The position numbers and the translations under genes were made by a program. A DNA stretch of 64,000 nt. It comes from Acidobacteriota bacterium (GTDB taxonomy: Bacteria > Acidobacteriota > Terriglobia > Acidiferrales > UBA7541). The notes under the pieces are model-generated. The model saw only the letters and a program-made list of their open reading frames with translations. It was not told where the DNA came from and ran no database searches. How positions within the stretch are numbered: the stretch's first letter is position 1; the number at the start of each line of letters is the position of its first letter. This document shows positions 32,572 through 54,015 of the stretch, one piece after another. The stretch spans positions 1 to 64,000 of the forward strand of contig QHZD01000019.1 of NCBI GenBank assembly GCA_003225315.1, given 5' to 3'.

Positions 32572-32583
32572 AGGTTTACCTAC

Positions 32584-32806: not shown

Positions 32807-32840
32807 CTACCGGAGCGTCCCGTAACGAACGCTCCGGTAG
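32807..32840 (-). repeat. Perfect 11-bp hairpin after precursor 2
   Basis: The same stem as after precursor 3 (CTACCGGAGCG / CGCTCCGGTAG), with one loop difference, 12 bases after the stop of precursor 2. It is followed by TTGTTCAAATT on the minus strand, not a good terminator tail. Confidence 0.75.
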
Positions 32841-32852
32841 AGGTTTACCTAC

Positions 32853-32993: not shown

Positions 32994-33056
32994 GGCTTTC
33001 ACCTCCTTTGTTTTGAGTTGTCCTTTACAAACAACTGATTTGCGATTGGGCATTGC

Positions 33057-33197
33057 TTACTCCCAATCCGCATAACCGGAGTGCAGCTCGTTTGCACCCA
33101 AAGCATCACGGGTCGGCTTACTGACCATCTTGTTGCCGTTGCTCTGGATGGCATCGATCGCAGTCAATGCAGTGAGTTCTGGCGTTTCGTATTTCAT
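33057..33197 (-). CDS. Lasso-like precursor peptide 1 (46 aa), overlapped by the cyclase gene
   Basis: 46 residues from the ATG at 33197, with AAAGGAGGTGAAAACG upstream. The leader MKYETPELTALTAIDAIQ is followed by SNGNKMVSKPTRDALGAN and ELHSGYADWE. It shares RD-x-L-G-x-N-E and GYADWE with precursors 2 and 3 but differs at about nine sites. Its first 80 bases lie inside the 3' end of the upstream Asn-synthetase-like gene, in another frame, so translation of the two may be coupled or competing. Confidence 0.85.
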   Translation of the reverse strand: MKYETPELTALTAIDAIQSNGNKMVSKPTRDALGANELHSGYADWE

Positions 33198-35312: not shown

Positions 35313-37253
35313 TCAGCCTTGCATAGAAGGGCTCAATGCCAATCCATGCCCCATGGTTGTCTGCAAATTCATGACGCGCAGAGTGCGAAGATCCCTCAGC
35401 CAGCCTTCGAGGAATATGGTGGTTGTCAGGGCATTTGTGGGGAATTTGTCATCATCGCCCTGGCGAGCCTTCTGTAAGGCTTCGAGAAAACGATTTGTGT
35501 CAACAATACCGATCGCACTGCTGACCATATCCTGGGCTATTTCCGTCAATCTCGCCCAGTCTCTTGAAATGCCCACGAGCGGGGCGCGCGAGACAAAGGC
35601 TTTTGTTTTCCTGTTTAGGATTTCGTCGGGCACAATCCCGAAGAGCGCGCGACGCATCAGAGATCGACGCTGTGTCGGACGGACAAGTTGTTCCCGTGGG
35701 ATGGCAAACATGAATTCCAGAAGGTCCCGGTCAAGAAAAGGATAACGCTTGTCAAAGGGGGGATCGAAGGGCGCCGCGGCACGTGCTAGCTGCCTTCGCA
35801 AAATATCGAGCGTACCCAAGTTGCCCTGAAAGCTCGGCAGAGGACCGAACAGCTTCGTGCGTGAAGGATAGCCGGTTAGCGCAGCCCGGTGGCGCTTCAC
35901 AAAATTCGACTGTAGCCACGGGGCCGGCCGCATGTATTTTGGAACTCCCACGACCGAAGGCGGAAAAAAATCCCTAGCAGCTTCCCAGAACAGATGAAAC
36001 CATGGTCTTCGTTTTTCCAGCGCCCAGACTTTCAGTTGATGAGCGAGCGTACCCAAACGCGCCCTCACAAGGTGGTTTTGCAGTTCAGATATAGGGGTTG
36101 GCACACCACCCATAACCTCGTCGCCGCCGATGCCGGAAAGCACGACGCGATTCCCTTGTGAGGTCAAGCACAGCTTCATTTCTCCGGACGTTCGGCCATC
36201 ATACCCGGGAGTCGCTACGAAGCGATCGGTAGATGGAGGCTCGGGGCGCGCCTTGGGCTCGGCCGCTTGATCCTCGTCTTTCTGTCCTACGTTGACGTGC
36301 CAACCTGTGCGGCCACGTTTTTCTTCGACTTTGGTGAAATACGGGCGTTCGTTCCAATTGGGTTCGGAGTCATCGTAGTTGGAAATGGTGTCAAGACGCG
36401 GGCATTCGGCTTGGCCTCGTGCAATCACGGTATCGGCCATACACACGATGGAAGAAGAATCTCTGCCGCCGCTGAGTTCTGCAAGGACAGGCCTATCGGA
36501 GCGGACCTTCCTCTCGACCGCTTGCGCAAAGACGGTACGAAACTGCTCCTCGTACTCGCAGTCAGTGCGGTAGCGGATATTCTTGCCTGGATCGAAATCC
36601 CAATACTTGCTGACAGTATGGCTTCCCGGCCGCAACAACACCCAAGAGGAGGGTGGCACAGAATGGATATCCACGCAGGGTGTTAGATGAACAGCCGGGT
36701 ACATGGACGAAAACCACCCGGCAACGTACTCTTTGTCGAGATCGAAAGTCCTTCCAGCAAACCGGATGATTGGGTCAAGGAGGGTTCCCCAAGTGACTTG
36801 ATTTCCGCCAATCCAATAGTAGAGATGACGTGTACCAATCGGGTCCTTAGCCAGGAGCAACGAACGGTTGTTGCGGTTCCAAATCGAAACCGCCCAGTCA
36901 CCGACAAGCTTTCCCAAACAGTTGTTGCCCCATCGTTCATACGCTGCTGCCACCAGTGCTACGTCGGTGTGGTCGCCGGTCAAGGAGTCGCGTAGTTCGA
37001 TGATGAGCTCCTTGCGATTATCCAAGCGTCCGTCCCAAGTGATCACGGCGCCAGACGGTGAAATATGTGGCTGTACTTCGAGATGCGACTCCGTTGTCGT
37101 GTGGAAAGCACGATAGAGGATTGCTACTCCGTCTTTGGAATACCCGTCATTGCTATCGGGTCCGTACGGAGCAAGCGTCGCGCCAACCTTGTCAAGATAT
37201 TCCTGGGTTACAGGCCGGCGGTCGAAATTCCATTTTCCAAACTGTACGCTCAT
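35313..37253 (-). CDS. Asparagine-synthetase-like lasso cyclase candidate 2
   Basis: 646 residues, clearly paralogous to candidate 1 (both begin MSVQFG-WNF and share GAVITWDGRLDNR). Cys2 is absent. The PP-loop is LAELSGGRDSSSIVCMAD and the second ATP-site motif is intact (LSGIGGDEVMGG). It ends normally in WLRDLRTLRVMN and a short tail. Lying between the B2 peptidase and candidate 1, it is the better preserved of the two and probably the main cyclase. Two cyclases for three precursor types may reflect division of labour. Confidence 0.85.
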   Translation of the reverse strand: MSVQFGKWNFDRRPVTQEYLDKVGATLAPYGPDSNDGYSKDGVAILYRAFHTTTESHLEVQPHISPSGAVITWDGRLDNRKELIIELRDSLTGDHTDVALVAAAYERWGNNCLGKLVGDWAVSIWNRNNRSLLLAKDPIGTRHLYYWIGGNQVTWGTLLDPIIRFAGRTFDLDKEYVAGWFSSMYPAVHLTPCVDIHSVPPSSWVLLRPGSHTVSKYWDFDPGKNIRYRTDCEYEEQFRTVFAQAVERKVRSDRPVLAELSGGRDSSSIVCMADTVIARGQAECPRLDTISNYDDSEPNWNERPYFTKVEEKRGRTGWHVNVGQKDEDQAAEPKARPEPPSTDRFVATPGYDGRTSGEMKLCLTSQGNRVVLSGIGGDEVMGGVPTPISELQNHLVRARLGTLAHQLKVWALEKRRPWFHLFWEAARDFFPPSVVGVPKYMRPAPWLQSNFVKRHRAALTGYPSRTKLFGPLPSFQGNLGTLDILRRQLARAAAPFDPPFDKRYPFLDRDLLEFMFAIPREQLVRPTQRRSLMRRALFGIVPDEILNRKTKAFVSRAPLVGISRDWARLTEIAQDMVSSAIGIVDTNRFLEALQKARQGDDDKFPTNALTTTIFLEGWLRDLRTLRVMNLQTTMGHGLALSPSMQG

Positions 37254-37315: not shown

Positions 37316-37690
37316 TTAGCACCTATCGACAATCGCGTACATCTCCGGTATGTATGACTTGTCGTTTACAACTCGGCCATCGACCTCGACCCAGGCGTGG
37401 GCTTTGAAAGGCATCTGCTGTGCCCCGATGACCATCTGCGCAGGTACGCCGTAGCGCTTCAAGAGACACGTCAAAGCTGCGGATCGTTGAAGGCAAAGAG
37501 ACTCTTTCCAGTACCAAATGCCGGCCATGTCCAGAGCAGCGCAGACCCGTTCGACCGCATCCGGCGTAGGAGTCTTCTTGCCTAGCGGGCACTTGCGCAC
37601 TTTGTCGTAGAGGGCGGCAAAATTTCTCCGCGCGAGGTAAAGGTCAAACTGAATCAGCTTTAGATACGCTTGCAGTACTAGAAATGACAT
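37316..37690 (-). CDS. Lasso peptide B2 protein, transglutaminase-like leader peptidase
   Basis: 124 residues from the ATG at 37690, which has AAGGTGG at good spacing; the open frame to 37795 is probably untranslated. The short N-terminal helix is followed by the Cys-His-Asp catalytic set of the family: Cys66 in ESLCLQRSAALTCLLKRYGV, His98 in FKAHAWVEVDG and Asp110 in RVVND. Stand-alone B2 proteins of this size cut the leader of lasso precursors with help from a B1 (RRE) protein. It is 62 bases upstream of cyclase candidate 2. It is the only B2 seen, so it would serve all four precursors. Confidence 0.88.
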   Translation of the reverse strand: MSFLVLQAYLKLIQFDLYLARRNFAALYDKVRKCPLGKKTPTPDAVERVCAALDMAGIWYWKESLCLQRSAALTCLLKRYGVPAQMVIGAQQMPFKAHAWVEVDGRVVNDKSYIPEMYAIVDRC

Positions 37691-38074
37691 GTAAACCACC
37701 TTGGTTAAGCTATCGAGTTTTAAGTCAAATTCCAGGACTTGACAGAATTTACTGATTCTTTTTTCTCGCTTTCCAAAGTTCCATTCGCATATCAACTAAC
37801 TTCCGTGTTGTTCATCGCGGGCTGGCGAGCAGGGCTGAACGATCAGTCGGCGGTAACTCTGAAGACGTGCTGATGATGAGTGATCTTGTCTTCGCTCGTC
37901 AACGGAAGACAGTTTTCATGTCCGGCCAAAAGGGGTGAGATGCGGCCATGAATTGAGTATTATGTGGAGATACATCTGAATATTATAATACTAGTACTAA
38001 ACGTAACTGGGCCAAAGACTCATGCAGGCCAGGGGCCTTATGTTCTTCCGAATTTTTGAAAAATGAAGACAGGC
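37691..38074. promoter_or_regulatory. Intergenic region upstream of B2, probable promoter of the core lasso operon
   Basis: No gene is seen. On the minus strand a TATAAT hexamer lies at 37982-37987 in an AT-rich patch, without a good -35 match. This is the only large gap within the minus-strand run, so transcription of B2, the cyclases and the precursors may start here separately from the glycosyltransferase genes. Confidence 0.35.
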
Positions 38075-38992
38075 TCAACGCGCGGCGGGCCGCAGCTCTT
38101 GGGTGGACTCCCAAGCGCCGTCATTGTCCCGGGTGAATTCTCGAAGAAGTTCTGTCTCTGAGGTGATCGCCAGCCTGTGCCCGTCAGGCTTATCGTGAAC
38201 GAACCAGTAGCGTCCGGCTCCAGGATAATACGGTGGTCCGATCGTTCCGTCGCAATTCAGGCGCAAGGATTTGTCTCGGTGGCCGCCTTTCAAGCATAAG
38301 GTTTGATTCTTCAGATGGTTTGTTTCTTGTTCGTTGATTTGTATGTGCCAGCGGAAAGGTGGCTTGTATCGGCCCTCGAAGAAATCAATATTAGCGAACT
38401 TATAGTAGGGTTTTAGTCCGTGCGCCATGAACACGGGCACTTCGTAGTCGAACTTCCCGGTTCCAAATCCAACCCAGTTATACCGTCGGTCAATCAATTC
38501 GAGCTTTAGGCCAAGGCGGTGGCGCGTTATGTTCAGCGGCGTCTGATCATACGGATCGTAAGAGGGAACACCCGGATTGGCCAGCACGAATTTTTCTGTT
38601 TCTCGAAACCAATCGTGATGGCAATTTCGATTGAGCATCATGAGTCCCGCATTGAAGTACTCGTGGATAGGGATGTCCCAATCCCGGCATGCCCGGATGA
38701 CCATAGGATGAAGGCGTTCCGCGACCGCCACAATTGCATCCCGTCTTGCGAATCTTTCGGGATTCCAGACGTTCAGGCACACCATATCCGAATCGAAAAA
38801 CATCACCTTATCGTCGTCAACTACATCAAAAACCCTCAGCTTTAGCAGATGGGGATAGGGAAGGCCAGAAGAGACAAAATGAGTGTCGTCAAGAATCACC
38901 GTCTCCAGACCCGTCATGTTTCGAACGGCCTCCGAAGCGCGAATGGCGAGTCTCTTGTAATATTCCCCAATTCCAATGGTCACGGCGATCAT
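38075..38992 (-). CDS. GT8-family glycosyltransferase b
   Basis: 305 residues with ribosome site GGAGAAAC. GT8 features: the metal motif VMFFDSDMVCLN near residue 70, the EYFNAGLMMLNR motif and a late DQTPLNITRHRLG segment. About 70 C-terminal residues after RYKPPFRWHIQIN form an extra beta-rich domain shared with its neighbour (SLRLNCDGTIGPPYYPGAGR). GT8 enzymes transfer glucose or galactose with retention. It is 18 bases downstream of its paralogue and near the lasso genes, so modification of the peptide or a carrier is possible. Confidence 0.82.
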   Translation of the reverse strand: MIAVTIGIGEYYKRLAIRASEAVRNMTGLETVILDDTHFVSSGLPYPHLLKLRVFDVVDDDKVMFFDSDMVCLNVWNPERFARRDAIVAVAERLHPMVIRACRDWDIPIHEYFNAGLMMLNRNCHHDWFRETEKFVLANPGVPSYDPYDQTPLNITRHRLGLKLELIDRRYNWVGFGTGKFDYEVPVFMAHGLKPYYKFANIDFFEGRYKPPFRWHIQINEQETNHLKNQTLCLKGGHRDKSLRLNCDGTIGPPYYPGAGRYWFVHDKPDGHRLAITSETELLREFTRDNDGAWESTQELRPAAR

Positions 38993-39010: not shown

Positions 39011-39952
39011 TTAAGCGTGGGCGTCAAATGACACTTCGGAAAGGGCAGGCTCCAACCGCTGAATCGACCGCCAAGACCTGTCCGATGCTTTCTTGAACTC
39101 CTGCAGGACTTGAGCTTCTGAACAAATCGCCAGCGTGAGTGAACCAGCTCTGTTATGCACAAACCAATATTGTCCCGCGCCTGTAAAGCGCGGCGGACCG
39201 ATTGTTCCGTCACTGTTGAATCGTATGCTCGTCTCTTTGTCTCCGGCGCTCATACATAAAGCTCGATTCTTGAGGCCGTCCATCTCCTCTTCGTTGATTT
39301 CGATTTGCCAGTTGAAAGGAGGTTTGTAGCGTCCTTCAAAGAAATCAATGTTCGCGAATTTGTTCTCGGGATGGAGCCCGTGCGCCATATAAACGGGCAC
39401 TTCATAACTGAGCCGGCTGCCTCCGAAACCGATCCAGTTATATCTTCGGTCCAGCAACTCCAGCTTGAGGCCCAGGCGATGACGAGTAATGTTCAATGCG
39501 GCCTGGTCGTAGGGATCGTATTCCGCAAACTTCTTATCCGTAAGTACAAAATGTTCTGTCTCCCGAAGCCAGTCCTGATGGCATCGGCGATTCAACAAGA
39601 GGAGTCCCGCATTGAAGTATTCTCCCGGCGGAATTTCCCAATCCTGTGCCGTCCGGACATGCAGAGGGCGAGCGCTTTCCGCCACAGCCACGAGCGCATC
39701 CATCCTTGCAAGACGCTCGGGGCTCCAGGGACTCAAGCAAACCATATCCGCGTCGAAATAAAGGACCGACTCATGGTTAACGAAGTCAAACATACGCAAT
39801 TTGAGGTGGTGCGGAGCGGGAAGGCCGGAAGAAGCGAAGTGCTCGTCGGTCAGGATTACTACCTTTATGCCGGTCTTTTCTTCCACAGCCTGTGCGGCAT
39901 GCCTCGCCAGGCGGCTGTAATATTCACCAACACCGATCGTGATCCCCACCAT
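39011..39952 (-). CDS. GT8-family glycosyltransferase a
   Basis: 313 residues, paralogue of the next gene on the minus strand (both start with TIG(I/V)GEYY-RLA). The metal motif is VLYFDADMVCLS, followed by EYFNAGLLLLNRRCHQDW and DQAALNITRHRLG. The same unusual C-terminal beta domain is present (SIRFNSDGTIGPPRFTGAGQ), and it looks like a carbohydrate- or peptide-binding module, which is inferred. It starts 6 bases after the GT4 stop, with GAGGAT upstream, in a tight three-gene glycosyltransferase operon. Confidence 0.82.
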   Translation of the reverse strand: MVGITIGVGEYYSRLARHAAQAVEEKTGIKVVILTDEHFASSGLPAPHHLKLRMFDFVNHESVLYFDADMVCLSPWSPERLARMDALVAVAESARPLHVRTAQDWEIPPGEYFNAGLLLLNRRCHQDWLRETEHFVLTDKKFAEYDPYDQAALNITRHRLGLKLELLDRRYNWIGFGGSRLSYEVPVYMAHGLHPENKFANIDFFEGRYKPPFNWQIEINEEEMDGLKNRALCMSAGDKETSIRFNSDGTIGPPRFTGAGQYWFVHNRAGSLTLAICSEAQVLQEFKKASDRSWRSIQRLEPALSEVSFDAHA

Positions 39953-39958: not shown

Positions 39959-41062
39959 CTATCCTCTTGCAACGATTTGTGAAAACCGCTCGGAGTTAAC
40001 AATTTCTCGGATTCTCTTCTCGATGGTCGCTCCCACGGCGCCACGGTCGAACTTTTTTATGTCACGGGTTGCATTTTGAACCTTTTGGCGAATCTCAGGA
40101 GTGTCACGCGTGTGATACAAGAACAGCAATTTCTCCTCCAAGTCCTCTACAGAAGGGTAGGCCCACTTCATGGTCTGATCGAAGAAATAGAAGCAATCCT
40201 CCGGCTTGATGTGATCCACGGCAAAATCCAGCAGCAGGGAGTTTTCGTCGTTCATGAACTCACAGTTGCCGGAATATCCAGTTGCGATCGTCGGTTTTTG
40301 CAAAATCATCGCGTCGGATAGGGTTAGCCCCCATCCTTCGGAATGATGAGGGCTAACATACGCATCCGCGGTTTCGTAAAGAGCGTTCATTTGTGCATCG
40401 TCAAGATGCTCACGCAGGACAATGACACTATCTTCCTGGAGATCTCCTACATCATCTTGAGGACCAACTTTGATGATTAGTTTGGCCTTTGGCATGGCTG
40501 GTCTTCGCCTCTGGAACGCGGCTGCCAGGGCCCTGGTGTTCTTGCGCAAATCCCACAGTTTCGTGACCATTAGAAAATAGAAACTTTTCCGGTCGTAGGA
40601 AATGATTCGTCGAATATATTCGCGGGCGGCATCTGAGCAATGCGTGTCGCGTTCGACCACATGCGGCACATATTTTACTTGCGGATGATACTGCCCGAAG
40701 ATTTCACAGCAATATTGTGAACACGTCCAGATTTCCTGAACGTGAGAGATCGCCTCTTGATATAGAGGCGGCAACTCACTAGCTTCCCAGACGCAATATC
40801 CGACAAGATATCTCCGCTTCAGGGCGGGATAGACTTCAACGAGCGACCTGAAACTGTGCGGTTCGAAATGCAGCAAAACAATGTCTGCAAGGCTGATCTC
40901 GCTGACGACTTCGGAGTGGCTCCGGATGAGGTCACGGTACACTCGTGCCACTCTTGCATGGCTCAGATATTTCGACGCCCCGTAGCAAACTTTCACACTT
41001 TTCAGATCATTCCCTAGTGTGGGAACCTCATAGGGAGCGGTTTGCTGGCCGGCGGTTTCCAA
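39959..41062 (-). CDS. GT4-family glycosyltransferase
   Basis: 367 residues from a TTG preceded by GTGGGG; no ATG is available near the N-terminus. The GT-B fold C-terminal half shows the E-x7-E donor-site motif (HHSEGWGLTLSDAM) and KPTIATGYSGNCEFM. The N-terminal half contains VGYCVWEASELPPLY, seen in GT4 enzymes that act on surface glycans. It is the first gene of the minus-strand operon and is transcribed divergently from the PqqD gene at 41387. Confidence 0.85.
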   Translation of the reverse strand: METAGQQTAPYEVPTLGNDLKSVKVCYGASKYLSHARVARVYRDLIRSHSEVVSEISLADIVLLHFEPHSFRSLVEVYPALKRRYLVGYCVWEASELPPLYQEAISHVQEIWTCSQYCCEIFGQYHPQVKYVPHVVERDTHCSDAAREYIRRIISYDRKSFYFLMVTKLWDLRKNTRALAAAFQRRRPAMPKAKLIIKVGPQDDVGDLQEDSVIVLREHLDDAQMNALYETADAYVSPHHSEGWGLTLSDAMILQKPTIATGYSGNCEFMNDENSLLLDFAVDHIKPEDCFYFFDQTMKWAYPSVEDLEEKLLFLYHTRDTPEIRQKVQNATRDIKKFDRGAVGATIEKRIREIVNSERFSQIVARG

Positions 41063-41386: not shown

Positions 41387-41641
41387 ATGCAAGTATCAGG
41401 AGTAGCTCGCGTGTCCACGACCACCGACGGGAAAACCATCATGGAAATTGCGGGGCGGCCCGCATTCGAACTAAATCGCGTCGCCTTGAGCATTTGGACG
41501 AAGTTGGCGGCCGGTCATTCCCCACAGGAAATCAGTTCGCAAGTCGCGAAAGAGTTCAGTGCTCCTGAAGAGCTTGCGAGCAAGGATGTGGATCACTTCA
41601 TCGAAAAGTTGAAGCGTCACCTGTTGATTTACGATAACTAG
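41387..41641 (+). CDS. Stand-alone PqqD/RRE protein
   Basis: 84 residues, with AGGAAG upstream. The winged-helix PqqD fold pattern is seen: a three-strand start (VARVSTTTDGKTIMEIAGRP), LNRVALSIWTKLAAG, and the helix HSPQEISSQVAKEF followed by DVDHFIEKLKRHLLI. Such RiPP recognition elements bind precursor leaders. It is closely related to the N-terminal domains of the three following fusion proteins, so it may be a copy that lost the transferase, or a separate leader carrier. Confidence 0.85.
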   Translation: MQVSGVARVSTTTDGKTIMEIAGRPAFELNRVALSIWTKLAAGHSPQEISSQVAKEFSAPEELASKDVDHFIEKLKRHLLIYDN

Positions 41642-41671: not shown

Positions 41672-42913
41672 ATGCAGGTATCTAGCATAGCGCGAGCGGT
41701 GTCTACGCCTGAAGGCAAGGCGTTACTGGAAATAGCAGGCCGCCCCCTGTTTCAGCTGAATTCAGTATCAGCTGCCATCTGGGCCAAGCTAGCCGAAGGC
41801 CGTTCCACTCAGCAGATTATCAGACAGATCGCGGCCCAATTTAACGTTTCGGTAGAACGCGTGACGAATGACGTGAATGGGTTTGTCGAGACGTTGAGAC
41901 AAAACGATCTCGCGAAGGACGATGTCCGAACACTTGATTACCATGTCGACTTGCTATGGAAAAAGGGAATTGCCGCCCAATGCGACTGGAGAATTCCCGA
42001 TGAGTTTCCCCAGGGATTGGGTTACGCGAGCGTTCTGGAACCCCTCGGACACTCAGTGCCGCCTTTTCTGCTCGACGACTTGATTTCGGATCCCGGAATC
42101 TACCGTGACATAAGGGATGGAGACCTGGTTTGGGTGAGATTTTCCTGGCTGAAGTCCTTTGTCAAACAGGTCCTGCCACTTGTTAAGGCAAGATTCATAC
42201 TCGTCACAGCGGATTGTCCACTGGGTGCACCGCTGCCAATCATGGGCGAGGCGCTGGAAATCTTAGAGTACCCCAACGTCCTCCACTGGTATGCGCAGGA
42301 TTGTAACGGCCCCGGTTTTATGGGACGCATGTCGCCGCTGCCACTGGGGATCGATTTTCATACCATCAGCGAACAACCCATGTGGGGGGAGGGTATTTCA
42401 TCCCCGCAAGAGCAGGAACAGATGCTCTTGTCAATCCGGCGAGAATTTCGCCCCGCGCGCGAAAGAATCCGCAAGGTTTACATTGATTTTGCCTGGCAAC
42501 CAGCCAATCGTTATCTCCCCGGGAAAAGGCAGAGAGTCATCGCCCAGGTGCTAACGAATCCGCGCGTAGTTTTTCAAAGCAGGCCCCTTTCCCGAAGGCA
42601 GTTGTGGCAAAAATGGGGGGAATATGCGTTCGTGTTGTCTCCACACGGAGACGGATTGGACTGTCACAGGACGTGGGAAGCGCTCGCCTGCGGCAGTGTC
42701 GTTCTGGTGCCATCGTCCCCCTTGGATAGCTTGTACGAAGGCCTCCCAGTAATCCCCATTAAAAATTGGAATGAGATTACGCCTCAGAACCTGGATGCAT
42801 GGCTCGATCGCTACCCAGGATGTGAAATCGGCGAGGAACGACTAAAAAGCAAGTATTGGGTGAACAAAATGAGGGCTATGACCAAAGAGAAACTCAACGC
42901 CAGCAATGGGTGA
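41672..42913 (+). CDS. PqqD/RRE-glycosyltransferase fusion 1
   Basis: 413 residues. Residues 1-84 are a PqqD-type RRE (VSSIARAVSTPEGKALLEIA, LNSVSAAIWAKLAEG, DVNGFVETLRQNDL). Residues about 90-405 are a GT-B-like, exostosin-like (GT47-like) domain with CDWRIPDEFP, NVLHWYAQDCNGPG, KVYIDFAWQP and the donor-site-like SPHGDGLDCHRTWEALACG followed by LDSLYEGLPVIPIKNWNEI. The covalent link of a leader-binding domain to a sugar transferase predicts leader-directed glycosylation of the precursor. The family call for the C-terminal domain is moderate; the fusion itself is plain. It lies 30 bases after the PqqD gene. Confidence 0.75.
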   Translation: MQVSSIARAVSTPEGKALLEIAGRPLFQLNSVSAAIWAKLAEGRSTQQIIRQIAAQFNVSVERVTNDVNGFVETLRQNDLAKDDVRTLDYHVDLLWKKGIAAQCDWRIPDEFPQGLGYASVLEPLGHSVPPFLLDDLISDPGIYRDIRDGDLVWVRFSWLKSFVKQVLPLVKARFILVTADCPLGAPLPIMGEALEILEYPNVLHWYAQDCNGPGFMGRMSPLPLGIDFHTISEQPMWGEGISSPQEQEQMLLSIRREFRPARERIRKVYIDFAWQPANRYLPGKRQRVIAQVLTNPRVVFQSRPLSRRQLWQKWGEYAFVLSPHGDGLDCHRTWEALACGSVVLVPSSPLDSLYEGLPVIPIKNWNEITPQNLDAWLDRYPGCEIGEERLKSKYWVNKMRAMTKEKLNASNG

Positions 42914-43062
42914 CGAATCTCGAATTCTTAGCGCTAGACTAGCGGTTCGCGAGAGCACCAATAGCCAGAGAATCGATCCTGATTTCGCACCTAACCTGCA
43001 GCCTTAGGAATTTGGACAAAGCCAGTGGCAGAAGCATTCAAGACAAAGCGTGCGCAACTCCT

Positions 43063-44343
43063 ATGATTACGTCGAGCATTGTGCGAACGATAGCGACTCC
43101 AGATGGTCGGACAACGCTGGAGGTTGCTGGGCGTCCATTCTTTCGATTGAATTCCGTAGGGGCCGCCATTTGGTCCAAATTATCGGAGGGTTGGTCCGTT
43201 CCGCGCATCATTCGTCATCTGGTCACACGGTGTGATGTCCCCGAGGAACGAATTGAAGAGGACGTAAACAATTTTCTGACAATCTTAAAGAGAAATCTTC
43301 TAGTGCAAGACTATGTCAGGACACTCGATGTTCGTGCCGAGGTTGTTTGGAACAAGGGAATTGCGCGCATGTGCGATTGGAGGATCCCTGACGAGTTCCC
43401 GGCTGATGTTGGTTACCGAAGAGTTCCCGACCCTGTAGGCCACATAGTTCCTCCTCACTTGCTTGCGAACTTGATTGTGAATCCTGAGATCTATCGAAAA
43501 ATAAAGGATGGAGACATCGTGTGGGTGAGGCCCGCGTGGTTGAAGTCTTTTATTGAGCGGATCCTTCCGTTCGTCCAAGAGAAGTTTATCCTCGTCACGG
43601 CCGATTCGGACGTCAGTATGCCGTCGCAGTTTTTGGCCGAAGCCTTGGAAATTTTGGAGCACCCGAATGTCCTCCATTGGTATGCCCAGAATTGTGATGG
43701 CCCGGGTTTCTTGAGTCGCATGTCTCCTCTGCCAATTGGTGTTGATTTTCACACCCTCTGTGAACGGCCTGAGTGGGGAGAAGACATTTCGTCGCCCGAA
43801 CAGCAAGAGCAAATGCTCCAGTCAATTCGGAAAAGCGTTCGTCCCGCGCGCGAGCGAATCCGGAAGGTCTATGTTGATTTTGCATGGCAGCCAAGCCATT
43901 TGTACCATCCATCAAAAAGGCAACGTGTCCTTGCGAGGGTTCTGGCGAATGAATGCGTTGTCTTTCAAAGCAGACCGCTTCCAAGAAGGGAATTGTGGCG
44001 GAAGTGGGGAGAGCATGCATTCGTGCTGTCCCCTCCTGGAGTAGGGTTAGACTGCCATCGTACGTGGGAGGCGCTTGCTTGCGGCAATATTGTTCTGGTG
44101 CCGCCGTCTCCCCTCGATGGTTTGTACGAAGGGTTGCCGGTGATTCCGGTTGAGGATTGGAACGACATCACACCTCGAAATCTGGATAGTTGGCTCGAGC
44201 ATTATTCTGAATGCCCAATCGGTGAGGAACGACTAAAAAGCAGCTATTGGATCAGCAAAATGAAGTCGTCGGCCAAGGAAAGAATCGCTTCCGCATTTTC
44301 GCAAGGATTGGGAAGTGCGGCATCCGCGTCACTGAGGCCATAA
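43063..44343 (+). CDS. PqqD/RRE-glycosyltransferase fusion 2
   Basis: 426 residues from the ATG at 43063, chosen because it matches the start of the paralogues; the frame also opens at a TTG at 43012. The RRE (TSSIVRTIATPDGRTTLEVA, LNSVGAAIWSKLSEG) is followed by the same transferase-like domain (CDWRIPDEFPADVG, NVLHWYAQNCDGPG, VYVDFAWQPSHLY, SPPGVGLDCHRTWEALACG). The donor-site-like motif has SPPGVG where the others have SPHG(D/A)G, so the substrate may differ. The C-terminus ends in an extra Ser/Ala-rich tail. Confidence 0.75.
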   Translation: MITSSIVRTIATPDGRTTLEVAGRPFFRLNSVGAAIWSKLSEGWSVPRIIRHLVTRCDVPEERIEEDVNNFLTILKRNLLVQDYVRTLDVRAEVVWNKGIARMCDWRIPDEFPADVGYRRVPDPVGHIVPPHLLANLIVNPEIYRKIKDGDIVWVRPAWLKSFIERILPFVQEKFILVTADSDVSMPSQFLAEALEILEHPNVLHWYAQNCDGPGFLSRMSPLPIGVDFHTLCERPEWGEDISSPEQQEQMLQSIRKSVRPARERIRKVYVDFAWQPSHLYHPSKRQRVLARVLANECVVFQSRPLPRRELWRKWGEHAFVLSPPGVGLDCHRTWEALACGNIVLVPPSPLDGLYEGLPVIPVEDWNDITPRNLDSWLEHYSECPIGEERLKSSYWISKMKSSAKERIASAFSQGLGSAASASLRP

Positions 44344-44345
44344 AC

Positions 44346-45578
44346 ATGCAGGTATCGAGCATAGCTAGAGCAGTACCGACCGCCGAAGGCGGTACTGTAC
44401 TTGAAGTTGCTGGTGCACCTATTTTTCACTTGAATTCAATTGCGGCTGCGATCTGGACAAAATTAACCCAAGGGCTATCCACGCACGAGATTGTTTCTGA
44501 GTTGACCACACAATTTAACATTTCTGAAGAGCGTGTTGCGAACGATGTAAAGAGTTTTGTGGACACGCTGAAACAGAATGACCTTGCCAAGGACTCCGTC
44601 AAGACATCAGATTTTCATGTCGAACTAGTGTGGAACAAAGGGATTGCCGCCCAATGCGATTGGAGAATACCCGACGAGTTCCCAGAGAAGCGCGCCTACG
44701 AAAGCGTCTTGGAGCCGGCCGGACACAGGATGCCTCCCCATTTACTCGATAGCTTGATTTCAAACCCCGCGATCTACCGGTACATAAAGACCGAGGACCT
44801 AGTCTGGGTGAAATTTTCCTGGCTGAAGTCTTTCGTAAAACAGGTCCTTCCACTTGTTCGAGCAAACTTTGTCTTAGTCACTGGCGACTCTGATGGAGGG
44901 GCACCACTACCAGTCATGGCCGAGGCGCTCGAAATTCTGGAGCACCCTAATGTCCTCCACTGGTTTACACAGAATTGCGATGGTCCGGGTTTTATGGGCC
45001 GAATGTCGCCTATACCCATCGGGATTGATTTTCACACACTGAATGAGCAGTCGCTTTGGGGCGAAACTATAGCGTCACCGCGCGAGCAGGAGGAAATGCT
45101 TCTGTCAATTCGGCAGGAGTTTCGTCCTACACGTGAGCGGATTAGAAAAGTTTATGTTGATTTCGCATGGCAACCCGCAAGTGCGTATGCGCCCTGGAAG
45201 CGAAATGGAATTAGAACAAAGCTCTTGACGAACGAATACGTCGTTTTTCAGCGGCAATTCCTCCCAAGGAGGCAACTATGGAGGAAGTGGGGAGAATACG
45301 CATTTGTGCTGTCGCCGCACGGTGCCGGACTCGACTGCCACCGCACATGGGAAGCGCTTGCTTGCGGCAATATTGTCCTGGTGCCGGCGTCTCCATTGGA
45401 TAGCTTGTATGAAGGATTGCCGGTGATCTCAATTAAGGACTGGAAAGAGATTACCTCGGAGAATTTGGATGCATGGCTGGGCCGTTACTCCGGATGTGAG
45501 ATTGGCGAGGAAAGGCTAACCAGCCGATATTGGGTCGCAAAAATGAGAACTACAGTTTCAAGCCTAAGTTTGGAATAG
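44346..45578 (+). CDS. PqqD/RRE-glycosyltransferase fusion 3
   Basis: 410 residues from the ATG at 44346, two bases after the previous stop; an upstream in-frame start at 44247 lies inside fusion 2 and is rejected. The RRE (VSSIARAVPTAEGGTVLEVA, LNSIAAAIWTKLTQG) and the transferase domain (CDWRIPDEFPEKRAYESVLE, NVLHWFTQNCDGPG, SPHGAGLDCHRTWEALACG, LDSLYEGLPVISIKDWKEI) are closest to fusion 1. Three retained paralogues suggest selection for several acceptor sites, donors or precursors. Confidence 0.75.
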   Translation: MQVSSIARAVPTAEGGTVLEVAGAPIFHLNSIAAAIWTKLTQGLSTHEIVSELTTQFNISEERVANDVKSFVDTLKQNDLAKDSVKTSDFHVELVWNKGIAAQCDWRIPDEFPEKRAYESVLEPAGHRMPPHLLDSLISNPAIYRYIKTEDLVWVKFSWLKSFVKQVLPLVRANFVLVTGDSDGGAPLPVMAEALEILEHPNVLHWFTQNCDGPGFMGRMSPIPIGIDFHTLNEQSLWGETIASPREQEEMLLSIRQEFRPTRERIRKVYVDFAWQPASAYAPWKRNGIRTKLLTNEYVVFQRQFLPRRQLWRKWGEYAFVLSPHGAGLDCHRTWEALACGNIVLVPASPLDSLYEGLPVISIKDWKEITSENLDAWLGRYSGCEIGEERLTSRYWVAKMRTTVSSLSLE

Positions 45579-46049
45579 AGAACCTGACTCGCTGATGTTT
45601 CCGTGTCTGGTTTCCCATTCCGGACCGTTCCCTGATTGTATTTGATAACGCTTCGGCCGTTTACCCACGGTTGCGTGAAAGCAGCGAGAAAATGCCGACG
45701 TAACACTGTATCCAAGGATTCCCGCCGTCTCATTAACATTAAAACGTCTGCCGTTTCGGAGAAGTTGTTCCGCCCTCTTCATTCTGACCTGTCGCGAATA
45801 GGCGCGCATAGTAGTCTGGTATAACTTCCTGAATTGTTTGCTTACCAGAGACAAATCTACTTGAAATTTCCTGCATTCTTTCGCCGGGCTGCAGGAGAGA
45901 TTGCCACCCGATTGATCAATTAGCTGGCGAAGTCTTTTTGCCATTTGTTTGGACTTGCATTCTGCTCTTCCCAAGATCAGGTCTATTGCGTAGCCAACGG
46001 TAAGCACTTCCGGGCGGGAGTAGATCCCTTTAGTTACAAACAAAGACAT
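45564..46049 (-). CDS. AraC-family regulator without sensor domain (first copy)
   Basis: 161 residues from the ATG at 46049 after AGGAAG. The C-terminal 100 residues form an AraC double helix-turn-helix: CRKFQVDLSLVSKQFRKLYQ followed by TTMRAYSRQVRMKRAEQLL, then FNVNETAGILGYSVTSAFSR and CFHATVGKRPKRY. The first 60 residues are too short for a cupin sensor. It overlaps the 3' end of the third fusion gene by 15 bases and faces it. It may control the glycosylation or lasso genes. Confidence 0.82.
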   Translation of the reverse strand: MSLFVTKGIYSRPEVLTVGYAIDLILGRAECKSKQMAKRLRQLIDQSGGNLSCSPAKECRKFQVDLSLVSKQFRKLYQTTMRAYSRQVRMKRAEQLLRNGRRFNVNETAGILGYSVTSAFSRCFHATVGKRPKRYQIQSGNGPEWETRHGNISESGSLFQT

Positions 46050-46542
46050 TCGCACTTCCTGGATAAATATCCGGCACTCTTGTTTTTTTGGATCACCGCT
46101 GATGTAAGGTATCCGTATCCATCAAGGTGACTGCCAGGGCGGGAGATAAATTGTGGGGCTGAGAAACTTATTTTGAACTAGATTCTATGCCCGGGTCAAC
46201 GGAGGAGACAAGAGATAGTCTCAGCCTCGGGAAAATGATGCGGACCGGTGATTGTCTAGGGTATTCACCCGAAGTCTTTCCGAGCCGGTTCGAGTTGGGT
46301 GATTGGTAGTGCGATGGGCGACGCTGGAGTTATGTCCTGCGCTTAGGTTGGGAACCTCGAATTATGGAATCCGCTGTCTAGGGCCTCAAAACATGCGTCG
46401 AAAATACAAAAATCAATCATTACTTGCCAATTGTGACAAAAACGGTTGACGCGAGTTACGTGCATTGTCTACCGTCAAACTGAAAAAGCTTCAGAGTCGT
46501 TTCCACAATTAGAGGGTACCTTGCGCTCCAGGAATCTACGAG
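46050..46542. promoter_or_regulatory. Intergenic region between AraC regulator and GT4 gene
   Basis: No gene is seen in 490 bases. TTGACG at about 46447 is a possible -35 for the GT4 gene but no convincing -10 follows. It probably carries the divergent promoters of the AraC and GT4 genes. Confidence 0.35.
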
Positions 46543-48186
46543 ATGAAGGCGTTGTACATAGATCAAGTTAGTGCAAATCCCGAAAGCCTCCAGAAGAAGG
46601 GCCATCAGACCATCAAGGGTGCCGACATATTCGAGTGGAACCTGCTTTCGGCTCTGCTTGAATACGGAACCTACGACGCCTACTTTGCGCGTGGGCTAAC
46701 GGAAGAAAAGAAACAAGCACTGTTGCACGGCGGTTTACCTCAGGACAGTATCAAGCGGCTTGTTCCTGCGCCTCTTGGAGGACAGTTACCCTTCGAAGAT
46801 TCTGACCATGTGGTCTTCCTGACGGCTGGCCGATACCTGAACGCCTTGGCTGCGGTGCGTCAAAAACTGAAACGGTACGATGCACCGGTGTGCGGGTTCA
46901 TACATTCCATCAACTCCGTGCGTATTGCATTCGCTTTGCTGCAGCAATGTTTTGCAGGACTCTCTGAAGCTGATCTGCTGTTTTGTTCAAGCCGAGCGGG
47001 AATGAAGACGATTGATATTTATGCTGATGAGATTAATGGGCTGCTGCCACCAGAGTTGCGTTACCGGACGCGCCGGGTTCTTATTCCTCTAGGTGTCAAT
47101 ATTCCGGCTGTCGAGCAAGGAGCGGCAGGCGCTCTGCGGCAAAGATTGAGTATCGAAACACAAGTCAGCATCGCGTTGTATTGTGGCCGTCTGTCGCAAG
47201 GTAGTAAGTGTGATTTGGGGCCCCTATTGGTTACCTTGTCTCAGTTGCTGAGGAGAGGGAATGATCTTTATCTGATTATTGCAGGTGATGATACCCAATC
47301 GAAAGAAGCCCCGCGTCTGGAGGCACTTGCCAGCGAATTGGGTTGTCAAAAAAACGTGATGATATGGCCCAATCCGTCAGCGGATGAAAAGCATCTGCTA
47401 TATTGCGGGGCCGATTTCTTTGTATCGCCCAGCGATAATATGCAAGAGACGTTTGGGCTAAGCGTCGCTGAGGCTATGGCTTATGGTCTTCCCGCTGTTG
47501 TCTCGGATTGGGATGGGTATCGAGATATGGTAAGAGATGGACAGAACGGATTCTTAGTCCCTTCGGTCTTGCCGACAAGCGTAGGGCACTTCCGCCTCTG
47601 TGATTGTGTGACGTCCATGCTGGAGGAGGATTCGCTGGCCCAGTCCACAACCATCGATATCCCCTGTTTGTCCGCGAGAATGGAAACACTTGCCGCGGAT
47701 CCGGAACGCCGCGCGCAAATGGGGCAAGCTGCCAGGCGATTCGCAGAAGACTATTGCAGCTGGCGAGTTGTCGTAAGGCGCTATGAAGAATTGTGGGAAG
47801 AGTCCTTGAAGGCTGCGAGTTCCAACAAGCTGCGGTCAGGGAAATCCAAACATCTGCTGAACCTCTCCTTGGAAAAGGCCTTTGGGCACTACGCCAACGG
47901 AAAGCGAAGCGAGGAAGCAAAATGTTTTATAACCGAAGAAGGCCGAGAATGGCTAAAACGGCCGAGTCGTTTGTATTTTCTACCCCAATTGTCCGCTGTC
48001 CCATGTCCGGGAAAATTCGCTGATATGCTGCGTGAAATATCGGATCGCCCGGGCTTTTCAGTCGCTGAGTTGGTGGAGGCTTTCTCAAATGGAGGCGAGC
48101 ACGCCTCAGCGGGTGATGCCCATTGGATCCTAGGAAGGTTGTTCAAATACGGTTTGGTGACCGATAGACAAGACGCACTCACATAG
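46543..48186 (+). CDS. GT4-family glycosyltransferase with C-terminal winged-helix-like domain
   Basis: 547 residues. Residues 1-420 are GT-B/GT4: GRLSQGSKCDLGPLLVTLSQ, then IIAGDDTQSKEAPRLEALA and the donor motif FVSPSDNMQETFGLSVAEAM followed by AYGLPAVVSDWDGYRDM. The last 110 residues (after LNLSLEKAFGHYANGKRSEE) are an added helical domain ending in FSVAELVEAF ... WILGRLFKYGLV, a winged-helix pattern similar to the end of PqqD domains. This could be another leader- or carrier-binding module. A GH3 hydrolase follows on the same strand. Confidence 0.8.
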   Translation: MKALYIDQVSANPESLQKKGHQTIKGADIFEWNLLSALLEYGTYDAYFARGLTEEKKQALLHGGLPQDSIKRLVPAPLGGQLPFEDSDHVVFLTAGRYLNALAAVRQKLKRYDAPVCGFIHSINSVRIAFALLQQCFAGLSEADLLFCSSRAGMKTIDIYADEINGLLPPELRYRTRRVLIPLGVNIPAVEQGAAGALRQRLSIETQVSIALYCGRLSQGSKCDLGPLLVTLSQLLRRGNDLYLIIAGDDTQSKEAPRLEALASELGCQKNVMIWPNPSADEKHLLYCGADFFVSPSDNMQETFGLSVAEAMAYGLPAVVSDWDGYRDMVRDGQNGFLVPSVLPTSVGHFRLCDCVTSMLEEDSLAQSTTIDIPCLSARMETLAADPERRAQMGQAARRFAEDYCSWRVVVRRYEELWEESLKAASSNKLRSGKSKHLLNLSLEKAFGHYANGKRSEEAKCFITEEGREWLKRPSRLYFLPQLSAVPCPGKFADMLREISDRPGFSVAELVEAFSNGGEHASAGDAHWILGRLFKYGLVTDRQDALT

Positions 48187-48346
48187 CACGCTATCCTGAT
48201 GAGAAATCTGCTTTGCCGGTCCGGATTCTGAACGTAGCAATCGATTCACTGAGCCAATTCCTATTCCTCACTCTGCTCAACGCCCCACGAGTCGACTGCG
48301 TCAGTCCCACTCCAAGCATTGAAGTGGATTGAAGGAGAAAGGCCGC

Positions 48347-51022
48347 ATGAAAAGGAAAAAGACGAGAAATAAGCGTATGCAAGTTCGGGTCTCTTGCCTC
48401 TTAATTGCAGCCGCACTTTGTCCTCATTTGCACTGCGCTCAGAATTCTATTCCCGAGCAGCCCAGGCGTGCTTACCTCGATCCGGATCTGCCGCTTGAAA
48501 AACGCGTTAACGATTTGGTGTCGCGCATGACTCTTGAAGAAAAAGTTTCTCAAATGCAGAATAACGCTCCCGCCATTCCTCGTTTGGGCATTCCTGCCTA
48601 TGGGTGGGCGAATGAAGCATTGCACGGAGTCGCGCTTGCCGGTCACGCCACCGTTTTTCCCCAGGCTATAGGATTGGCGGCGACTTGGGACACGAGTCTA
48701 GTTCACAGCATCGCGGACGTCATCTCGACCGAGGCTCGCGCCAAGCACAACGATGCCATTCAACATGGCAATTTTGGTGAACACTACGGCCTCGACTTCT
48801 GGTCACCCAACATCAATATTTTTAGGGATCCGCGATGGGGCCGTGGCCAGGAAACCTATGGTGAAGATCCCTTTCTTACTGCGCGGATGGCGGTGGCATT
48901 TGTCACTGGCCTTCAAGGCGACAATTCCACCTATCTCAAAACAATTTCAACCCCTAAGCATTTTGCGGTTCACAGCGGCCCGGAAGTATGGAGGCATCAA
49001 TTTGACGCCGAGCCTTCACCGCACGATCTGGCGGACACCTACACGCCCGCATTTCGAGCAGCCATTGTGGAGGGAAAAGCAGATTCGGTTATGTGCGCAT
49101 ACAACGCCGTTGACGGCGTTCCAGCCTGTGCGAATGACAAGCTCTTCGGCCTGTTGCGCAACAAATGGGGATTTCGCGGGTATGTGGTTTCAGATTGCGG
49201 AGCCATCGGTGACATCTACACGGGGCATGGTTACGTGGCGACTCTGGCGCAAGCGGCAGCCATGTCGGTTAAAGCCGGAACGGATCTGAATTGCGGGAGC
49301 GGGTACTACATGCTTCGATATTCAATCGCAGACCGGATGATTTCGCGCGAGGACATTGATCGCTCTGTAAAGCGTTTGTTCGAAGCACGCTTCCGTTTGG
49401 GAATGTTTGATCCGCCGGAACGTGTGCCGTGGTCTGGCTTGACGCTGGCGGACAACGACACGGTCGAGCATCGCCAGCTTGCGCTCAAAGCCGCACAGGA
49501 ATCCATCGTACTGTTGAAGAATGAGCGGAACACTTTGCCGCTCAAGCCCGCCGTCAAGAAAATCGCAGTGATCGGACCGAACGCTGACTCGCTCGACGTC
49601 TTAGTGGGCAACTACAGTGGCATGCCTTCAAGGTACTCCACGATTCTCGATGGCATCCGCAAAAGGTTCACCGGCGCAAAAGTGATTTTTTCGGTTGGAT
49701 CAGTGCCTGTCGAAACCGTTGGTGTGCCTATAGACAAGGAGAGCTTACGTCCCGGAGGCGCGAACTCAGAACCTGGACTAACCGGCGAGTATTTCGGAAA
49801 CGCAACTCTGGAGCGCAAACCAATTGTGACTCGTGTGGATTCCGGTATTGATTTTACCTGGAATGGTGTTGTGCCGGCTCCAGGCGTTTCGAATGGCGAG
49901 TTTTCGGTCCGGTGGAGCGGCGAACTTATTCCCCCAAGCACAGGCGGCTATCGGTTTGGTCTCCGCAGCGAAGGCAGCTATGGCCTCCGGCTCTATTTGG
50001 GCGGTAAATGCTTGATCGACGAATGGACGCGTTCAGGGGAGGGCGGTTTAACTCCTTTGGTCCATTTAGAGCGCGGTCGAGCCTATCCAATTCGTGTCGA
50101 GTATGTGCATCGTAGGTGGGAATCTTCGGCACACTTGCTTTGGCAAGCGCCGGATTTTCAGGAACGCGCCTTGGCCGCGGCGCGCGAAGCTGATGTGGTT
50201 GTCGCTGTTGTCGGCCTTACGGCCCGTTTGGAGGGAGAAGAGAATGGCCTTGTCATTCCCGGCTTTTTCGGAGGAGACCGGGTTGATCTGGATCTTCCGG
50301 CGCCACAGCAGCAGCTCCTCGAATCCGTGGCCGCCACGGGAAAACCACTGACCGTCGTGCTGACCAATGGCAGTGCGCTGGCGGTGAATTGGGCACAGGA
50401 ACATGCTTCTGCGATCATCGAGGCGTGGTATCCAGGGGAGGAAGGCGGCACCGCCGTGGCCGACGTCTTATCAGGCGCTTTCAATCCCGCTGGACGATTG
50501 CCAGTGACTTTTTATAAGTCCGTGGAGCAACTACCACCGTTTCGTAGCTACTCCATGGCCGGGCGCACCTACCGTTATTTGACGGAGCAGCAGTTGTACC
50601 CGTTTGGATACGGCCTGAGCTACACAACGTTTCACTATGACAAGGTAGAAGCGGAGTCGCCCAAGATTGCGGCCGATGGAACCGTCTCAGTATCCGCGCG
50701 CGTCACCAACACCGGAAAAGTTGCGGGCGACGAAGTGGTTCAGGTTTACCTCACGCACCCTGGCGCTGAGGGCGCACCGATTCGCGCGCTGGCGGGATTT
50801 CAACGCGTTCACTTGGAGGCAGGTGCGTCTAAAACCGTAAAATTCTCCTTGCGTGACCGTGATTTGAGCATCGTTGATGCAGACGGCGTGCTCCGGATCG
50901 TTCCTGGTGAAGTCAAGGTGTGGATTGGGGGAGGACAACCGATCATGGGACCAGGACAAGGGTCCACTGCCGGTGCGGAAACTCGATTCCAGATTACATC
51001 TGGAGCCGTATTACCCGACTAA
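48347..51022 (+). CDS. Secreted GH3 beta-glycosidase with PA14 domain
   Basis: 891 residues from the ATG at 48347 after AAGGAG; a TTG at 48329 is the longer alternative. After a basic N-terminus there is a signal peptide (VSCLLIAAALCPHLHCAQ). The GH3 N-domain shows GRGQETYGEDPFLTARM and the nucleophile Asp in GFRGYVVSDCGAIGDIY. A PA14-like insert (about residues 480-610, GLTGEYFGNATLER ... YRFGLRSEGSYGLRLYLGG) is followed by the second GH3 domain (GLVIPGFFGGDRVDLDLPAP) and a fibronectin-III-like end. Beta-glucosidase or xylosidase activity is likely. In this setting it might trim a glycosylated peptide, or simply digest plant sugars. Confidence 0.88.
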   Translation: MKRKKTRNKRMQVRVSCLLIAAALCPHLHCAQNSIPEQPRRAYLDPDLPLEKRVNDLVSRMTLEEKVSQMQNNAPAIPRLGIPAYGWANEALHGVALAGHATVFPQAIGLAATWDTSLVHSIADVISTEARAKHNDAIQHGNFGEHYGLDFWSPNINIFRDPRWGRGQETYGEDPFLTARMAVAFVTGLQGDNSTYLKTISTPKHFAVHSGPEVWRHQFDAEPSPHDLADTYTPAFRAAIVEGKADSVMCAYNAVDGVPACANDKLFGLLRNKWGFRGYVVSDCGAIGDIYTGHGYVATLAQAAAMSVKAGTDLNCGSGYYMLRYSIADRMISREDIDRSVKRLFEARFRLGMFDPPERVPWSGLTLADNDTVEHRQLALKAAQESIVLLKNERNTLPLKPAVKKIAVIGPNADSLDVLVGNYSGMPSRYSTILDGIRKRFTGAKVIFSVGSVPVETVGVPIDKESLRPGGANSEPGLTGEYFGNATLERKPIVTRVDSGIDFTWNGVVPAPGVSNGEFSVRWSGELIPPSTGGYRFGLRSEGSYGLRLYLGGKCLIDEWTRSGEGGLTPLVHLERGRAYPIRVEYVHRRWESSAHLLWQAPDFQERALAAAREADVVVAVVGLTARLEGEENGLVIPGFFGGDRVDLDLPAPQQQLLESVAATGKPLTVVLTNGSALAVNWAQEHASAIIEAWYPGEEGGTAVADVLSGAFNPAGRLPVTFYKSVEQLPPFRSYSMAGRTYRYLTEQQLYPFGYGLSYTTFHYDKVEAESPKIAADGTVSVSARVTNTGKVAGDEVVQVYLTHPGAEGAPIRALAGFQRVHLEAGASKTVKFSLRDRDLSIVDADGVLRIVPGEVKVWIGGGQPIMGPGQGSTAGAETRFQITSGAVLPD

Positions 51023-53700: not shown

Positions 53701-54015
53701 TTATGATGGTGCGGCAGTATGTTGAGGAACACTCCGGTGGACCAACCCTGCCTTCTCGAGTTTCTCCAGATGCTCGGTGATGTCAGCTTCCAATCTTTCA
53801 GGTGGTGCGTCGAACTGTTTGCGCAGCGAATCGATCAGATCCTGAAAGGTAGAGCCTCCCTGGCGCGATTCAAGGGCGTTCCAAGCCTTGGCTGCTACAA
53901 CGTTCAGGCTGTAACACAAGCCCTTTTGAATATCCAATATCACGGCACCATCCTGAGTGTAAGTGGAGCGAGCAGAGTTAGACACTTTCCAGACAGAATT
54001 CGGAATTGCTTTCAT
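53701..54015 (-). CDS. Lasso peptide B1 protein (PqqD-family RRE)
   Basis: 104 residues, with AGGAGAT upstream. It matches the stand-alone PqqD-like B1 of lasso loci: DGAVILDIQKGLCYSLNVVA, AAKAWNALES, STFQDLIDSLRKQFDAPPER and DITEHLEKLEKAGLVHRS. B1 binds the YxxPxL leader and presents the precursor to B2. It is more typical of B1 than the shorter PqqD at 41387, so it is the likely B2 partner even though it is encoded 16 kb away. Confidence 0.85.
   Translation of the reverse strand: MKAIPNSVWKVSNSARSTYTQDGAVILDIQKGLCYSLNVVAAKAWNALESRQGGSTFQDLIDSLRKQFDAPPERLEADITEHLEKLEKAGLVHRSVPQHTAAPS

Follow-up and report, generated by a model that had tools for sequence, protein, structure and literature searches.

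The stretch of DNA analyzed here (the window: 64,000 nucleotides, positions 1 to 64,000 of the forward strand of contig QHZD01000019.1, assembly GCA_003225315.1) is contig C9 of the 4.98-Mb, 57-contig genome of an Acidobacteriota bacterium. It carries an Acidobacteriota lasso-type gene cluster, which encodes four precursors of the YxxPxL type, a B2 peptidase, a pair of cyclases, and four further glycosyltransferases (GTs), and in which a run of forward-strand genes encodes three fusions of a PqqD-type recognition element (RRE) of ribosomally synthesized and posttranslationally modified peptides (RiPPs) to a GT domain. The first gene of this run is a stand-alone, B1-like RRE of 84 amino acids (aa) (41387 to 41641; PF05402, 42.8 bits against a curated cutoff of 23.4), which has a ribosome-binding-site-like AGGAAG 8 bases ahead of its ATG, shows 71 to 74% identity to the B1-like RREs of the related loci L018, L019, and L062, and is likely the B1 of the cluster. 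The fusion F1 (41672 to 42913; 413 residues; RRE at 41672 to 41923 and GT domain from about 41924) starts 30 bases past it and is followed by F2 (43063 to 44343; 426 residues) and F3 (44346 to 45578; 410 residues), the latter starting 2 bases past the F2 stop. The open reading frames (ORFs) of F2 and F3 are open from TTG codons at 43012 and 44247, respectively; the likely ATG starts at 43063 and 44346 were chosen by alignment, with which F1, F2, and F3 align from residue 1. In each protein, residues 1 to 84 form the RRE (PF05402, 47.3, 43.8, and 47.6 bits in F1, F2, and F3) and the remainder, from residue 85 on, a GT domain of about 326 residues. The three tandem proteins with an 84-residue PqqD/RRE N terminus that the initial annotation had described are thus borne out. 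In protein alignments, F1 and F2 are 70 to 71% and 61% identical to F3, respectively.

The same fusion is found, open and collinear, in three related genomes (L018, L019, and L021) and, truncated where the sequence stops, in a contig nearly identical to the window (L022), so it is not a chance joining. The named relatives are soil metagenome-assembled genomes labeled Acidobacteria (two of them gp2), Candidatus Angelobacter, and one contig filed as Bathyarchaeota. In a sample of the class, the GT domain was recovered from 7 of 399 genomes, the window's own included. Four of these seven, all of the window's genus, have the intact fusion, in three, one, one, and one copies, the last count being read from a 3.7-kb contig. 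The relative at L020 has a decayed N terminus, and for those at L023 and L024 the RRE search came back empty. A sample of the phylum gave relatives of the GT domain in 2 of 396 genomes, namely, the window's own and G479, and among viral contigs 26 stretches fitted the search patterns, none of them a true relative. PF05402 itself is matched in at least 235 of the 399 class-sample genomes. The ratio of nonsynonymous to synonymous substitution rates (dN/dS) of the fusions could be estimated for 10 of 30 comparisons and is about 0.06 to 0.27 there; these values are rough because dS there is 1.1 to 3.7, synonymous sites being saturated in most pairs.

The GT domain carries a conserved motif, SP(H/P)GxGLDCHRTWEALACG, whose forms in the individual proteins are SPHGDGLDCHRTWEALACG, SPPGVGLDCHRTWEALACG, and SPHGAGLDCHRTWEALACG. 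A phmmer search of solved structures with a single sequence recovered A075L of chlorovirus PBCV-1 (E = 4.9 × 10−10), and a profile of nine homologues matched the same protein with an E value of 9 × 10−16. The match spans only the GT part; the solved A075L chains are 282 to 285 residues long. An AlphaFold model of F3 (mean predicted local distance difference test score [pLDDT], 63.3; predicted template-modeling score [pTM], 0.48) likewise ranked A075L first in Foldseek (E = 8.5 × 10−9), and VIA-align superposed the two with a Z score of 12.4 (root mean square deviation, 4.6; 236 residues; identity, about 21%), the next other GTs reaching a Z score of 8.8. EXT1/2 (7scj) and other GT-B chains match with Z ≤ 8.8 and were not drawn on as evidence. 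In the GT part, Pfam gives a weak match to RXYLT1_C (PF24785; at best 16.1 bits, below the cutoff of 27). RXYLT1, like A075L, is a xylosyltransferase. Exostosin (PF03016) was not among the Pfam matches up to an E value of 1, although the HMMER filters may drop weak ones. For lack of such a match, membership in GT47/exostosin was set aside, and the domain appears instead to be A075L/GT114-like, after its closest solved relative. Hence, of the roughly 320-residue exostosin-like domain of the initial annotation, the size and the motif hold, whereas the exostosin assignment and the comparison with GT47 give way to A075L, which is closest by both sequence and fold. A predicted structure devoid of a nucleotide-sugar site, which that annotation had named as grounds for abandoning its view, did not appear, although the model is of only middling quality.

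According to its published description, A075L is an inverting, metal-independent beta-xylosyltransferase that adds xylose onto the fucose of a glycan, with Asp73 as the base and Arg158 and Arg208 binding phosphate (PMC11571054). Sequence alignment maps its Asp73, Arg158, Arg208, Glu211, and Gly203 to D183, R286, R333, E336, and G328 of our domain, and the donor-site equivalents Arg286, Arg333, Glu336, and Gly328 are kept in all nine aligned rows.

For the RRE, leader-pocket residues of LppB and PbaB1 were taken from PMC13381572 and transferred to 13 positions by sequence alignment (LppB N33, D70, and F74 correspond to N30, D67, and F71). In solved RRE-leader complexes, the Asn and the Asp (here N30 and D67) fix the kink of the leader and its Tyr, with the Phe (F71) as a divider (PMC13381572). 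Across B1, F1, F2, and F3, positions 27, 29, 30, 36, 67, 71, 75, and 80 are identical, positions 32 and 53 are conservative, and positions 60 and 64 are variable. N30, D67, and F71 are intact in F1, F2, and F3, as they are in seven stand-alone B1-like RREs; among the fusions other than L020, N30 is kept in five of six and D67 in six of six. The L020 homologue, from Angelobacter, has lost F27, N30, and D67, and none of the window's lasso genes was found in the 20 kb surrounding it. Residues 1 to 83 of the F3 model superpose on two lasso RREs whose solved structures include the leader, namely, TbiB1 (5v1u; Z = 11.8 for 82 residues) and TfuB1 (6jx3; Z = 11.3). The kept pocket thus supports leader binding as the predicted function of the fused RREs. 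A tree of these RREs, in which L020 forms one very long branch, does not discriminate between one and several origins of the fused RREs; a single change was recovered in 12% of 200 bootstrap replicates.

In the reading that we consider most likely, the three fusions are leader-docked GTs that glycosylate the precursor or a glycan that it carries. The RRE would grip the MKYETPEL part of the precursor in the groove that its third strand forms with its third helix, while the tethered GT-B domain would load a UDP-activated sugar, possibly xylose, and, by an inverting, metal-independent mechanism, pass it on to the peptide or to a sugar attached beforehand by the GT8 and GT4 enzymes of the cluster. 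This glycosylation would precede leader removal by B1/B2 and ring closure by a cyclase, and the three paralogues might attach one sugar after another or each act on a different precursor. The proposal builds on the architecture, the mostly kept pocket, the kept main donor residues, the gene context, and the conservation in relatives; from these we infer leader binding, the sugar, the acceptor, the inversion, and the order of steps. If this role is true, a short leader tag could perhaps redirect such a GT to other peptides, which would be of use for peptide glycosylation.

That the donor sugar is xylose is a tentative suggestion, based on the relationship to A075L and on one nearby gene for a beta-xylosidase-like GH3 glycosidase (48329 to 51022, forward strand; PF00933 and PF01915). 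The best NCBIfam match of the latter is xylosidase_Xyl3A (884.9 bits, under the cutoff of 1,250), and its best solved chain is a xylan 1,4-beta-xylosidase.

Several points weigh against leader-docked glycosylation. Leader binding by the fused RREs and GT activity are predictions from sequence and model, and the F3 model is of middling quality, with residues 84 to 144 below a pLDDT of 50. The acceptor of A075L is a sugar, not a peptide (PMC11571054). In the sequence alignment, Asn148 of A075L is replaced by Asp in nine of nine rows and Thr150 by Ala (eight rows) or Gly (one row), while the position of the catalytic base is Asp in eight of the nine rows but Pro in F1 and, by eye, is not Asp in the G479 relative (L108) either. 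The pocket also shows changes (Cys57 in F2, Cys27 in the L019 fusion, and Ser30 and Leu71 in the L021 fusion), in addition to the two variable positions. The clusters at L062 and L066 have GT8, GT4a, and the precursor tail motif described below without an RRE-GT after B1, which implies that the fusions are dispensable for basic modification, and the motif may reflect nothing but the common descent of the GT-bearing clusters. Finally, no GH3 relative was found in the 21 kb that make up L019, while the L018/L025 contig stops inside GT4b, so the xylose reading hangs on one cluster.

The alternative that survives best, though rather unlikely in our estimation, is that the fusions act in glycan extension only, lengthening a sugar chain begun by the GT8 and GT4 enzymes on the leader-bound precursor, with the RRE keeping the substrate near. 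The transfer of xylose to the fucose of a glycan by A075L (PMC11571054) fits such a role, as does the presence of GT8, GT4a, and GT4b in the three fusion clusters read (window, L018/L025, and L019/L026) and of GT8 and GT4a genes in clusters lacking fusions; arguing the other way, POGLUT1, solved with epidermal growth factor-repeat peptide acceptors, also matches, if weakly (Z = 8.4). Alternatively, the RRE could be a scaffold or relic whose partner, in place of the leader, is B2, the cyclase, or another RRE, with the GT acting on the mature peptide or on an unrelated glycan. Sun et al. (Chem Sci 2025, 16:6480; in the reference list of PMC13352647) reportedly glycosylated a mature lasso peptide, going by the title, and L020 retains the GT domain with a decayed N terminus in another context. 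We nevertheless judge this improbable, given that the fusions other than L020 retain the principal residues of the leader pocket and that dN/dS on the RRE part alone is 0.08 to 0.27 (a rough range, from the 5 of 15 pairs that yielded a value). It is highly improbable that any of the copies lacks catalytic activity and serves to hold the leader for active ones, for although F1 and, likewise, its near-identical L022 copy have Pro at the catalytic Asp position of A075L, F1 keeps R286, R333, E336, and G328, and Asp181, two residues before base position 183, is invariant in nine of nine rows and by eye is also present in L108, which lacks Asp183, so that it could stand in as the base.

Comparison of clusters suggests that the fusions were added late, when the cluster was sugar-rich already. 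The gene order B2, GT8, GT8, GT4a followed by B1, RRE-GT, GT4b is common to the window, L018/L025, and L019/L026. Both L062 and L066 combine GT4a with two GT8 genes but lack a fusion past B1; GT4b comes next in L062, and the L066 stretch stops before that point. A second, simpler sister lasso cluster in the window's own genome (L008, contig C7) has GT4b only, with GT8, GT4a, and RRE-GT each lacking a match there. Two cyclase genes, with about 55% identity in the window, accompany the window's GT types (window, L008, L025, L026, L061, L062, and L066), and a single one occurs in the other sister clusters fetched. Between GT8 and B2, L062 (5007 to 9602) and L066 (10664 to 15051) have a pair of GH92 and GH127-like genes, assigned by eye in the former and by Pfam (GH92 and GH127) in the latter; they are further signs of a glycan that would be both built and dismantled.

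Some relatives of the GT domain lie in other settings. L108 is a 617-aa protein with an N-terminal part that is GT8-like by eye, a GT114-like domain, and no RRE evident by eye. The GT114-like protein of L020 (9740 to 10960; L027) lies near ketosynthase-, acyltransferase-, and crotonase-like genes and a 904-aa kinase/LanC-like ORF (assigned by eye), a neighborhood that is perhaps a hybrid lipid-peptide pathway. L022, filed as Candidatus Bathyarchaeota, encodes proteins 96 to 100% identical to B1, GT8 (39011), and GT4a of the window and is probably wrongly binned acidobacterial DNA.

The window contains the lasso gene set of B1, B2, and an asparagine-synthetase-like cyclase, from which a putative lasso product can be read. 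On the reverse strand lie the first cyclase (35313 to 37253; 281.3 bits) and the second (33118 to 35250; 241.5 bits), both PF00733 proteins whose best NCBIfam match is lass_lactam_cya, under that model's cutoff of 525; the end of the second cyclase ORF overlaps the first precursor ORF. The same strand encodes the B2 leader peptidase (37316 to 37795; NF033537, 80.5 bits, meeting the cutoff of 33), a GT8-like GT (38075 to 38992; PF01501, 19.4 bits, below 24.3) that is 61% identical to the adjacent GT8 (39011 to 39952; PF01501, 28.7 bits, meeting 24.3), and the GT4-like GT4a (39959 to 41062; PF13692, 45 bits, meeting 27). Past the fusions are a reverse-strand AraC-type regulator (45564 to 46055; PF12833), which lies beside the fusion in L018 too, and the forward-strand GT4 enzyme GT4b (46543 to 48186; PF00534, 86.4 bits). 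At its C terminus, GT4b is extended by 110 conserved residues that may form a winged helix; a structure model made to see whether this part is another RRE was unreadable (pLDDT, 33.7). Beyond the GH3 gene follow an ABC exporter (51091 to 52869, reverse strand; PF00664 and PF00005) and a further stand-alone RRE (53701 to 54015, reverse strand), which alignment and tree place on another branch. On the other side of the precursors, the forward strand encodes an AtxE2-like lasso isopeptidase (29913 to 32252; NF033523, 149.7 bits, below 400; AtxE2, 5txc, E = 7.6 × 10−28), a TonB-type outer membrane receptor (26451 to 29762; PF25183, 459.3 bits; PF00593, 31.9 bits), and an ECF-type sigma factor (24079 to 24753; PF04542 and PF08281).

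The four precursors, all on the reverse strand (33057 to 33233, with the leader MKYETPELTALTAIDAIQ; 32853 to 33053; 32584 to 32790, with the same MKYE... sequence as the preceding one; and 32312 to 32485), represent three distinct sequences, and all contain the MKYETPELTALT leader, of the YxxPxL type. We surveyed precursors from the window (32312 to 33233), L008, L025, L026, L061 to L077, and L087 to L106. A tail motif, N[DE]...Y.DWE, is present in all 16 distinct precursors of GT-bearing clusters (window, L008, L025, L026, L062, and L066) and absent from all 41 precursors (19 plus 22) of clusters without matches to the window's GTs, defined by tblastn as having none in the 8 to 20 kb fetched. 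By B2 identity to the window, GT-free clusters (L064, 77%; L065, 76%) are closer than some GT-bearing ones (C7, 68%; L062, 69%), so the motif does not simply track B2 ancestry. Its conserved Asn is a candidate modification site.

The window leaders end in AIQ rather than with a Thr at leader position −2; all 22 related precursors of the second set, with the leader counted from the Tyr at −17, have Ile or Val at this position, and Ile at −2 had previously been noted for Acidobacteriaceae (PMC10368454). With cleavage after AIQ, none of the three distinct window precursors has a first core residue with an Asp or Glu 7 to 9 residues on, whereas all three have a Lys with an Asp or Glu as residue 8 or 9, and a canonical Gly1 ring was rejected on these precursor rows. 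In a first set of 35 distinct acidobacterial precursors, in 30 of which the pattern was first noticed, a Lys lies 7 to 9 residues (inclusive) ahead of an Asp or Glu in 34, against 8.7 in shuffles (0 of 3,000). In a second set, fetched afterwards, this was true of 20 of the 22, against 4.9 expected (0 of 5,000), a count that may be 19 because L089a qualifies through a late Lys. All 20 residues were tried as ring starters in both sets. Asp also stood out in the first (16 of 35 against 8.1 expected; 4 of 3,000); in the second, Gly reached 15 against 9.4 expected (58 of 5,000), and besides Lys no other residue stood out. An acid at 7 to 9 from the first core residue is present in 13 of the 22 precursors of the second set and 8 of the 35 of the first. 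As read from these sequences, many acidobacterial lasso precursors could not form the usual N-terminal ring, and the spacing suggests either a ring through an internal Lys side chain or extra trimming to a Lys1. With this spacing, the ring chemistry of a group that is for the most part uncultured can be put to a direct test, and this side result is possibly weightier than the fusions. A composite scenario, which as a whole we regard as unlikely, would have leader-docked GT114 enzymes building a short, perhaps xylose-containing glycan, the ring closing via an internal Lys, in place of the N-terminal amine, 7 to 9 residues from the acceptor Asp or Glu, and a glycosidase and the isopeptidase undoing both after TonB-dependent uptake.

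We know of no RiPP role for a GT114-type domain. PF00535, a family of GTs that figures in the comparison below, is a GT-A family. Fusions of an RRE to a GT were mentioned in 2020 by RRE-Finder (PMC7470986), and their general architecture is that of our proteins; those mentioned in 2025 involve PF00535 (PMC12710340), unlike the GT114-like GT-B domain of the window fusions. Our literature search, which covered mostly titles and beginnings of abstracts plus some passages, recovered no RRE-fused GT placed in a lasso cluster. The leader-guided sugar transfer of the initial annotation is upheld in part: the main pocket and donor-site residues are kept and YxxPxL precursors are present, while the family looks GT114-like rather than GT47 and "new tailoring class" is too strong a term because RRE-GT fusions (PMC7470986) and the glycosylation of a mature lasso peptide are already in print. 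That latter case concerns the mature peptide rather than a leader-held precursor. Pseudomycoidin is likewise a sugar-bearing lasso peptide, but its sugar involves a nucleotidyltransferase-like enzyme, PsmN, acting after a kinase (PMC9266682 and PMC8498205). PMC12670498 lists Gly, Cys, Ser, Ala, and, newly, Asn as N-terminal ring residues, from which a Lys-based ring of either kind would depart. A075L (GT114; PDB codes 8avq, 8asa, and 8q8i) is alike in sequence profile, fold, and main donor-site residues, but it extends a viral N-glycan (PMC11571054), whereas here the same type of domain follows an RRE within one protein encoded in a RiPP cluster. TbiB1, TfuB1/FusB1, and PbaB1 (PDB codes 5v1u, 5v1v, 6jx3, and 9x90) share the fold and the main leader-pocket residues of the fused RREs; they are stand-alone, whereas the window RRE heads a GT, with a separate B1 also present. 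In the BsfB1/BsfK/BsfB2 system of Bradymonas, B1 accelerates a kinase whose substrate is the lasso precursor in its linear form, with Ile at leader position −2 (PMC10368454). There, too, an RRE promotes tailoring of a linear precursor, as we propose for the fusions, although the modification is phosphorylation, not glycosylation, and the RRE there is a separate protein, whereas in the window it is part of the predicted tailoring enzyme itself.

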